The notes beneath the pieces are model-generated. The model was given only the letters and a program-made list of their open reading frames with translations. It ran no database searches and was not told the DNA's origin. The position numbers and the translations under genes were made by a program. A stretch of DNA of 64,000 nt from Streptosporangium sp. NBC_01495 (GTDB taxonomy: Bacteria > Actinomycetota > Actinomycetes > Streptosporangiales > Streptosporangiaceae), in assembly GCF_036250735.1 (NCBI RefSeq), contig NZ_CP109430.1, positions 6,634,001 through 6,698,000 on the forward strand, written 5' to 3'. Positions 3 to 5,750 of this stretch are shown here, piece by piece (within the stretch, counting starts at the first letter, position 1; every line of letters starts with the position of its first letter).

Positions 3-3000
3 CTGTTCCTGACCGAGCAGCCGGGCGGGATGGGCGGGTTGTTCGTCTACAACCGCGACCTGTTCGACGCGGCCACGGTCGAGGGGATGGCCGCGCAGCT
101 GGAGGCGCTGCTGGGGGCGGTGCTGGCGGCCCCGGCCGCGCGGATCTCGGAGCTGGACGTCCTTCCCACCGAGGAGCGGAGGCGGGTGCTGGCGTGCGCG
201 GCGGGTCCCGGGGAGCCGTACGCGGACGGGGCGACGCTGGGCGGGATGTTCGAGGCGCAGGTGGCCCGGACGCCTCGGGCGGTGGCGGTGGAGTTCGAGG
301 GTGAGCGCCTGACGTACGCGGAACTGGAGGTGCGGGCCAACCGGCTGGCGCACCGGTTGCGCGGGCTGGGGGTGGGGCCCGGCTCGCTGGTGGCGGTGTG
401 CGCGGAGCGGTCGGTCGAGCTGGTGGTGGCGCTGCTGGGGGTGGTGAAGGCCGGAGGGGCGTACGTGCCGCTGGATCCGGAGTATCCGCCGGAGCGGCTG
501 GCGTTCATGCTGGCCGACGCGGCGGTGCCGGTGCTGCTGGCGCAGCGGGCGGTGCTCGACGTGCTCCCGGAGAACCTGCGGGGCGCGGCTCCGGACACGG
601 TCCTCGGCGGGCCGGACGCGGTTTCCGGTGGCGCGGTGAACACCCTCGCGGGTGCGGAGGCGAACGCGGGCACGAAAGCGGGTGCGGGCACGAAAGCGGA
701 TGCGGAGGCGGCGAGGGAGGTGCCCCGGGGCGGCGGGGTGGTGACGGTCGTGCTGGACGATCCGCTGGACGGGCCGGGCACGCCCGTGGAGCCGTCGGCG
801 ACGTCGGCGGACGCGGCGTACATGATCTACACCTCGGGGTCGACGGGACGACCCAAGGGGGTGCCCAACACGCACGGGGGCATCCGCAACCGGCTGGGCT
901 GGATGCAGAGGGTCTACGGGCTGACCGGCGACGACGCGGTGGTGCAGAAGACCCCGGCGGGTTTCGACGTGTCGGTGTGGGAGTTCTTCTGGCCGCTGGT
1001 GACGGGCGCGCGGCTGGTGCTGGCCCGTCCCGGCGGGCACAGGGACGCGGCGTACCTGCGGGACCTGATCGTGGACCGCGGGGTGACGACGGCGCATTTC
1101 GTCCCGTCGATGCTGGCGGCGTTCCTGGAGGAGGAGGGCGTCGAGGCGTGCGGGTCGCTGCGCCGGGTGGTGTGCAGCGGCGAGGAGCTGACGGCGCACG
1201 TGGCCGAGCGGTTCTTCGGGCGGCTGCCGGAGACGGGGCTGTTCAACCTGTACGGGCCGACGGAGGCGGCGATCGACGTGAGCCTGTGGCGGTGCCGCCC
1301 GGGTGACGCGACGGTGCCGATCGGGCACCCGGTGGAGAACACCTCGCTGTACGTGCTGGACCGGCACCTGCGACCGGTGCCCTTCGGGGTTCCCGGTGAG
1401 CTGCACATCGGCGGGGCGCAGGTGGCGATGGGCTATCACGCCCGGCCGGGCCTGACGGCGGAGCGGTTCGTGCCCGACCCGTTCGGGACGGCGGGGGCGC
1501 GCCTGTACCGGACGGGTGACCTGGTGCGGCTCCGCCGTGACGGTGCGATCGAGTTCCTGGGGCGGATCGACCACCAGGTGAAGATCCGTGGGCAGCGGAT
1601 CGAGCTGGGCGAGATCGAGGCGGTGCTGCGCGGGCTCGCGGGGGTGCGCGAGGCGGTGGTGACGGTGCGGGAGGACGGCGCGCCGGGCGACAGGCGGCTG
1701 GTCGCGTACGTGGTGCCCGTGGCGGCGGCCGGCGCGGCCGGTGAGGGACCGCCCGGAGCGGAGCCGGACAGGACGCGAGGGAGCGGCACTGGACCGGACG
1801 GGACGCCGAGGAACGGTACGGGGCCGGACGGAGCGGAGCTGGACGGGGCGGAGCTGCGGCGGGCGTTGAAGGTGACGCTGCCCGACCACATGGTGCCGTC
1901 GGCGTTCGTGGTGCTGGACGCGCTGCCGCTGAGCCCGAACGGCAAGCTGGACCGGAAGGCGCTGCCCGCGCCGGAGCGGCCGGTCGCCGAGGCGGCCGGG
2001 CCGGGCGCCGAGCCCCGGACGCCGGTGGAGCGGGCGATCGCCGACATCTGGCGGGAGCTGCTGGGGGTGGCGTCGGTCGGCGCCGACGGTGACTTCTTCG
2101 AGCTGGGCGGGCACTCGCTGGTCGCGATCCAGGCGGTGGCGCGGATGCGCAAGGCGCTGCCGGTGGTCGGGGGGCGCGCGGTCGGGGTGATGGACCTGTT
2201 CAAGCACCCGACGGTGCGCGAGCTGGCGGCCCTGGTGGAGCGGCCCGCGGGACCCGCGGGGCCGCGGAGCCTGCTGTACGAGCTGACCAGGCCGGGGCCC
2301 GCGCTGATGACGTACGTGTGCATACCGTACGGCGGGGGCAGCCCGCTGATCTTCCAGCCGCTGGCCGACGCGCTGCCGGACGGGTGCTCGCTGCACGCGC
2401 TCGCCTTCCCCGGGCACGACCCCGGGTTGCCGGACGAGGAGACCAGGCCGATCGACGAGGTCGCGGACCTGTGCGTGACCGAGATCCTGGAGAACGTCGA
2501 GGGCCCCCTGGCCCTGTACGGCCACTGCGGCATCGGCGGCGCACTGGTGGTGGAGGTGGCGCGGCGGCTGGAGGAGCGGGGCCGCGCGCTGGAGGCGGTG
2601 TACATCGGGGCGATCTTCCCGTTCGCCAAGCCGAGGGGCCGGATCGCGGGGCCGCTGGCGCGGCTGACGCGCTACGACCGGTTGCGCGGCGACCGGGTGT
2701 ACGAGAACCGGATGAAGTCGATGGGCACCGACATCTCGGGGCTGGACGACGAGCAGGTCCGGTTCATGGTGCGCAACCAGCGGCGTGACACCCTGATCGC
2801 GGAGGAGATCTTCACCCGGGTGCTGGCGGAGCGGGTGGAACGGCTGCGGGCGCCGGTGGTCTCGGTGGTGGGCGAGCAGGATCCGACGACCGACTACTAC
2901 CAGGAGCGTTACCGGGAGTGGCACTTCCTGAGTGACACGACGGCACTGGTGATCCTGGACGAGGCGGGTCACTATTTCCTGAAATATCGGGCTGCTGAGC

Positions 3001-5750: not shown

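Follow-up and report, generated by a model that had tools for sequence, protein, structure and literature searches.

A putative membrane-anchored terminal module in Streptosporangium: Cys-type thioesterase, MFS transporter and APH-type kinase in one reading frame of an NRPS gene

The enzymes of an assembly line, the exporters and the self-resistance enzymes are normally encoded by separate genes. In the obafluorin synthetase ObiF1, a single protein unites C, A, carrier and TE domains, and the TE relies on Cys, His and an Asp at position II; the protein ends with an integrated MbtH-like domain, is without an MFS transporter or kinase, and leads to a product whose terminal amino acid is not serine. 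In ObiF of P. fluorescens, the MbtH-like domain is followed by an aryl A domain (PMC6668435). The TEs of ObiF and SulM are described as sharing a nucleophilic Cys with an Asp shifted to position II, and both close four-membered rings (PMC6668435, PMC11298585). Type II TEs, among them the hydrolase RifR, have their Asp at position II as well (PMC6668435), so that this feature alone does not prove ring closure. In cereulide synthesis, the NRPS is tethered to the membrane by its transporter (PMC7527721), and the vph and cph resistance kinases reside in the tuberactinomycin clusters; their products (the viomycin and capreomycin phosphotransferases) are APH-type, tied to an NRPS product and described as resistance enzymes (PMC9403184).

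The gene described here resembles ObiF1 in joining C, A, carrier and Cys/His/Asp(position II) TE domains in one protein, and it resembles the cereulide CesAB-CesCD system in that a transporter is proposed to anchor the NRPS at the membrane, although CesAB-CesCD uses an ABC transporter, consists of separate proteins and has no kinase. Vph and Cph differ in being encoded by separate genes, and the fused kinase is very weakly similar to them (NCBIfam, 0.0073 and 1.9e-4).

The gene lies at the edge of a window of 64,000 nucleotides (G000:C1:6634001-6698000) in the 11.1-Mb genome of Streptosporangium sp. NBC_01495. Positions 3-5750 (+) of the window form a single open frame of 1915 aa that is truncated by the window edge; in the whole genome, the frame extends upstream to a stop ending at window position -1483, and its first start codon, a GTG at -1428 (L004:16572), yields a protein of 2392 aa. 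The domain order is C-A-T-TE-MFS-APH, all in one frame, with Pfam matches to Condensation, AMP-binding, AMP-binding_C, PP-binding, Thioesterase, MFS_1 (1.7e-18) and APH (Table 1). The initial annotation had read positions 3-5750 as one continuous frame, which is confirmed by the 2392-aa frame and by the occurrence of the same fusion in 17 of the 341 family genomes searched. It had also proposed an A-T-TE module: A, T and TE are present, but the full module is C-A-T-TE, its C domain having been found by Pfam upstream and missed earlier since the window includes very little of it.

Table 1. Features of the fused gene and of the genes downstream (window coordinates)
Feature	Position	Strand	Basis
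C-domain end	3..185	+	Pfam Condensation to protein residue 538; most of the domain upstream of the window
Adenylation domain, code DVWHVSLIDK (serine type)	249..1946	+	Pfam AMP-binding, AMP-binding_C; code by motif position
Thiolation (carrier) domain	2034..2237	+	Pfam PP-binding 8.3e-15
Thioesterase, Cys nucleophile	2289..3071	+	Pfam, alignment; ObiF1 the nearest solved relative by sequence
TE catalytic sites	Cys codon 2526-2528 (YGHCGIGG), Asp 2880-2882, His 2970-2972	+	
TE-MFS linker, low complexity	3072..3428	+	Mostly pLDDT under 50, no modelled structure; length varies among relatives
MFS transporter, drug/H+ antiporter group	3429..4751	+	Pfam MFS_1/MFS_3; NCBIfam TIGR00900 5.9e-45, below cut-off; model helices
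MFS-APH junction, after FDDE...DDLVG	4752..4808	+	Alignment
APH-type kinase	4809..5747	+	Pfam APH 2.7e-33; conservation; fold
Kinase sites	Lys 4962-4964, Glu 5001-5003, catalytic Asp 5415-5417 (HND), Asn 5430-5432, Asp 5490-5492 (IDMEN)	+	
C-A-T gene, code DILQFGLIWK (glycine type)	5751..8969	+	Pfam; code by motif position
A-T-C-A-T gene	9278..14431	+	
PKS module KS-AT-KR-DH-ACP	14340..20390	+	

We lean, by a small margin of confidence, towards a reading in which the fused gene encodes the terminal module of an NRPS(-PKS) line as one membrane-anchored protein that releases, phosphorylates and exports the product. The module would add serine to a chain ending in Gly; the TE would take the chain on its cysteine and then release it, perhaps with formation of a strained ring at the beta-hydroxyl of the serine, in the manner of ObiF1; and the tethered MFS transporter would export the product. 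The C-terminal kinase, which would lie on the cytosolic side, where ATP is found, would phosphorylate the product, or an intermediate still bound to a carrier, at a hydroxyl, and this phosphorylation would most likely keep the product harmless until it is outside. By analogy, the tuberactinomycin kinases and the cereulide synthetase are precedents for each half of this scheme; neither is a fusion. Some observations count against the scheme in its simplest form: if the serine hydroxyl closes a lactone, the same hydroxyl cannot accept a phosphate; most of the relatives that lack the kinase read Asp-like in their A code and would have no beta-hydroxyl unless hydroxylated; and two APH-less genes also read Ser.

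A search with the MFS-APH part found both domains in one frame of 2100-2410 aa in 17 of the 341 family genomes, NBC_01495 included; all 17 loci read T-TE-MFS-APH, followed by a C domain, and the T, TE, MFS and APH parts of the other 16 fusions are 58-82% identical to the NBC_01495 protein. Named carriers are Bailinhaonella thermotolerans, Nonomuraea antri, Nonomuraea soli and Nonomuraea lactucae, the last truncated by a contig end. With the APH part alone, 27 of the 341 genomes match, namely the 17 fusions (60-100% identity), five genomes at 42-48% and five at 34-37%; the ten non-fusion relatives sit in frames of 325-630 aa, and no APH relative of at least 60% identity was found outside the fusions in the 341 genomes. 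Among 394 genomes sampled more widely from the class, 23 have a match, and the seven with a full-length MFS-APH part are all family genomes already counted.

The MFS-APH query matches 133 of the 341 family genomes in some way, and the MFS-only matches, among those listed, are nearly all in frames of 1300-3600 aa. From the match lists we picked by hand APH-less rows across genera, together with two plasmid records, taking long frames only and leaving out short-frame MFS matches (e.g. 304-618 aa) that resemble stand-alone transporters; the resulting set has 55 rows (52 distinct), 17 with APH and 38 without (35 distinct; L071/L124, L072/L125 and L012/L130 are duplicates). A Cys-type TE precedes the MFS part in 55 of these 55 hand-picked rows, and in the 38 APH-less ones it is of the YGHC type, so a TE placed immediately in front of the transporter is not the rarity that it was claimed to be, whereas the added kinase was rightly called unusual, with the APH fusion in 17 of 341 genomes and MFS-only frames of NRPS size common in the family. 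These synthetases thus regularly carry TE-MFS, and it is the kinase that sets the fused gene apart. Microbispora corallina (L020), Planomonospora venezuelensis (L012) and Streptomyces clavuligerus pSCL4 (L094), for example, have APH-less C-A-T-TE-MFS synthetases with the same domain order, a YGHC Cys-type TE and an MFS part 50-57% identical to the fused one; such synthetases, from the same family and some others, differ from the fused gene in lacking the kinase and in a final A code that is mostly Asp-like. In a tree of TE and MFS, the 17 APH-bearing rows fall on one side of a branch with support 100/99, in keeping with a single gain of APH, and the nearest APH-less row is L105, which has a Cys-like A code. 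In the open-licence literature searched, no bacterial NRPS-TE-MFS or TE-MFS-kinase protein was noticed, which is weak evidence of novelty; "TE-MFS" occurred there for fungal synthases only, and "NRPS-MFS" and "NRPS-transporter fusion" were absent.

As a separate observation, a second NRPS-TE-MFS gene of the same genome (G000:C1:7528991-7530382, L096) adjoins genes for 2-oxoacid dehydrogenase E1 and E2, and an E1 gene also adjoins the Planomonospora NRPS-TE-MFS gene (L012); a decarboxylase/acyl-transfer step may feed lines of these types.

The A code of the fused gene, DVWHVSLIDK, recurs as DVWH[VI]SL[IV]DK in 17 of 17 APH-bearing loci, read by motif position; two of these codes were read from L009 and L010, which were taken as G139 and G177 on the grounds of contig position and identical sequence. 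The final A codes of 33 distinct APH-less loci, a count that leaves out L073 and L093, are Asp-like in 25, Cys-like in three, Ser in two and other in three, the labels Asp-like and Cys-like being our own assignment. DVWHLSLIDK has been read as L-Ser and DILQIGLIWK as Gly (PMC10634486, PMC11566119). That the Ser code goes with APH (17/17 with the kinase vs 2/33 without) is suggestive at the level of sequence; as APH appears to have been gained once, the link amounts to one evolutionary event and not 17 independent trials.

The kinase domain passes the Pfam APH model (PF01636) with 116.2 bits against a gathering score of 23.2, all 18 APH-bearing loci aligned keep its Lys, Glu, HxDxHERN and IDxEN residues, and this part of the AlphaFold model is mostly at pLDDT 82-96, with the best 50 PDB fold matches listed all being APH-type enzymes. 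The description of a complete-looking phosphotransferase is thus well founded. Nine NCBIfam kinase families match, all below cut-off (best 8.5e-12, 45.1 bits vs 205), and a PDB sequence search gave one match at 2.4e-4; with APH so far below the cut-offs of named families, the substrate is not readable from homology. The kinase probably acts on the product of the line or on its precursor, and a role in self-protection is a tentative assignment, somewhat short of even. Among the neighbours scanned, no phosphatase was seen, as a phospho-prodrug scheme might want.

The kinase could instead be a tailoring (maturation) enzyme that phosphorylates serine or another hydroxyl on the carrier-bound chain, the phosphate then staying in the product or serving as a leaving group in some subsequent step. 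The presence of the kinase in cis with a Ser-type module in 17 of 17 loci and its conserved active site would suit such a role, but the nearest named families, weak as the resemblance is, are resistance kinases, and no enzyme using a phosphate leaving group was seen among the neighbours scanned; we regard tailoring as rather unlikely.

Around the 40 stand-alone APH loci, an NRPS match in the surroundings was read only for L033 (an A domain). Among ten neighbours from seven such loci, the sole repeated kind is a GntR-aminotransferase (MocR-like) regulator, whose gene stands directly before the stand-alone kinase relative at L018:8446-10921 and L028:8453-10882; this neighbour may hint at an amino-compound substrate for this kinase subfamily.

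By sequence, the best PDB match of the TE is ObiF1 (6n8e; E 4.7e-31 with the single sequence, 1.5e-35 with a profile), followed by 6vap (2.8e-18; profile 3.3e-20) and RifR (7e-13; profile 1.8e-13); chains 8w2c and 8w2d, which we take to be SulM, match at 1.8e-8 and 4.2e-7. In the alignment, ObiF1 Cys1146, Asp1254 and His1284 are the counterparts of the catalytic Cys, Asp and His (residue numbers from PMC6668435, with a 20-residue tag allowed for by our own count). The Cys, the His and a position-II Asp are present in all 55 rows, and none has an Asp at position I, where the 17 APH-bearing rows carry Ala throughout and the 38 APH-less rows Gly (30) or Ala (8). Relative to ObiF1, the fused TE carries one extra residue just after the Cys, and its position I is Ala rather than Gly. 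It shares the Cys nucleophile and position-II Asp with the SulM TE of sulfazecin, but SulM-like TEs are described as having a Gln-Cys-Asn motif (PMC11298585), whereas 23 of 23 aligned rows read His-Cys-Gly and four distant ones (L105, L111-L113) read His-Cys-Ala, -His or -Val; SulM-type beta-lactam formation is therefore not supported. The ObiF1 TE closes a beta-lactone, and the fused TE might, by analogy, form a small ring likewise, a prospect that we hold only slightly below even.

We consider it unlikely that the TE works as an ordinary hydrolase or macrocyclase whose Cys has no special meaning, with transporter and kinase as generic efflux and modification parts brought together by chance. 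AB3403 has a Cys TE yet is uncharacterised, so that Cys TEs are not all known ring-closers (PMC11298585); the second TE of the window (GGFCIGG) best matches AB3403, with a query that also took in the last part of the carrier domain; and RifR-type hydrolases share the position-II Asp (PMC6668435). Against this stand the combination of Cys with position-II Asp, ObiF1 as the best match, and the retention of the fusion in 17 genomes at the identities given above.

Across the blocks scanned between -1428 and 5471, GC at third codon positions ranges from 0.79 to 0.99. The lowest block (0.79) falls in the TE-MFS linker, which is rich in Pro, Ala, Ser and Gly (3072-3371), and the next lowest (0.80) in the C domain (-1128 to -829); being high throughout, third-position GC gives no sign of a frameshift. 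Apart from the natural end, the 17 fusion loci have no in-frame stop; the single TGA noted in six of them is that end, reached a few residues sooner than in the NBC_01495 protein. In an alignment of 23 rows (18 APH-bearing loci and five APH-less), the MFS-APH junction is kept residue by residue in 18 of 18 APH-bearing loci, N. lactucae included, and is missing from the five APH-less rows; the FDDE...DDLVG stretch before it is common to APH-less proteins too. The fused gene thus almost certainly gives one translated fusion protein.

Separate synthetase, transporter and kinase, arising through internal starts or proteolysis, are very unlikely, although the TE-MFS linker is long and without predicted structure, and in-frame GTG/ATG codons are present at both joints (TE-MFS and MFS-APH). 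Eight candidate internal starts have weak Shine-Dalgarno pairing (+1.9 to -6.5 kcal/mol, vs -9.2 kcal/mol for the ATG of the next gene at 5751). This test decides little, since the starts of the fused gene itself (GTG, only -5.2) and of two further cluster genes (-1.5 and +1.2 kcal/mol) also score poorly; conservation across the aligned genomes, in the junction residues and in the 17 loci free of earlier stops, is the stronger evidence for one frame. A sequencing or assembly artefact is practically out of the question, being ruled out by the identical frame layout in 17 assemblies and in N. lactucae.

The transporter part passes its Pfam gathering score (67.1 bits vs 33.4), and no solved relative was found for it by sequence in the PDB at E 0.01. 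The AlphaFold model has a mean pLDDT of 64 overall, with low to middling confidence in the TE and MFS parts; it shows 12 to 14 helices in the latter, where the peaks of a hydropathy scan overlap. Of the 12-helix transporter originally described, the MFS domain is therefore upheld, but the exact number of 12 does not emerge cleanly from the low-confidence model. A normal 12-helix MFS transporter has both ends in the cytosol, where ATP and the carrier domains are. The fused transporter probably exports the product of this assembly line. The second MFS gene of the window (35648) was considered as a recent duplicate of the fused one and ruled out, with 28% identity over 184 aa.

A more far-reaching reading, which we regard as doubtful, is that one membrane-anchored enzyme makes a strained-ring warhead with an ObiF-type Cys TE and a terminal serine, caps or disarms it with its own kinase and exports it by itself, as a member of a large and apparently undescribed actinobacterial "release-and-export" family of ring-closing TEs fused to MFS pumps. 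Because the parts are covalently joined and conserved, a single protein would suffice to test how a synthetase passes its product to an exporter; and should the TE prove to close rings, YGHC-TE-MFS would serve as a signature for mining genomes for reactive natural products whose self-protection enzyme is built in.

The Gly-type C-A-T gene is directly downstream of the fused gene in eight of eight clusters read. Relatives of the A-T-C-A-T gene (first 541 residues, at least 65% identity), among the matches listed, are near the fused gene in NBC_01495 and in five of the other 16 genomes; in ten they are on a different contig, and one has none (G147, with only 42-43% among the matches listed); in broken assemblies, another contig need not mean distant from the fused gene. 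In G199 and G209, the fused gene is on contigs of 1.0-1.9 Mb without an A-T-C-A-T match of at least 65% among the matches listed, and in G027 no such relative is present in the 60 kb read around it. In G200, G196 and G188, the A-T-C-A-T and PKS genes adjoin the fused gene and are divergently transcribed, and G195 has two copies of the A-T-C-A-T gene. The start of the line may thus be shared or supplied in trans. A four-gene line (A-T-C-A-T, PKS, Gly, Ser) as an obligate unit was not upheld, the A-T-C-A-T gene being mostly on another contig in the relatives. A starter-type C domain in the Gly gene, as in a lipo-initiating two-module line, was not favoured either, with matches to Txo2/Txo1 at 1e-83 to 2e-80 vs 8e-18 to the C domain of CDA, which we take to be a starter domain.

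A second NRPS line at 20377-37135 (+) reads C-A-T, C-A-T-C-A-T and C-A-T-TE, and three of the four A domains have Ser-type codes; its TE (GGFCIGG) likewise has a Cys, with 4zxh/AB3403 as the nearest solved relative, and a separate MFS gene overlaps the end of the line by 20 bases. The window thus seems to combine two assembly lines, which may share one start. Elsewhere in the window, a molybdopterin oxidoreductase fused to flavodoxin, FAD and NAD domains (43510-48042, -; 1510 aa) is perhaps a nitrate-reductase/flavoprotein fusion, and a transposase gene is located at 49598-50845. The 1787-aa protein encoded at 50920-56283 (-) combines Laminin_G-type lectin domains with a NucA/NucB DNase domain at its C terminus and resembles a nuclease toxin of the secreted or polymorphic kind. 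Near the window end, at 59709-63947 (-), there is probably a further NRPS gene, whose product is 30% identical to that of g20377 over 1178 aa.
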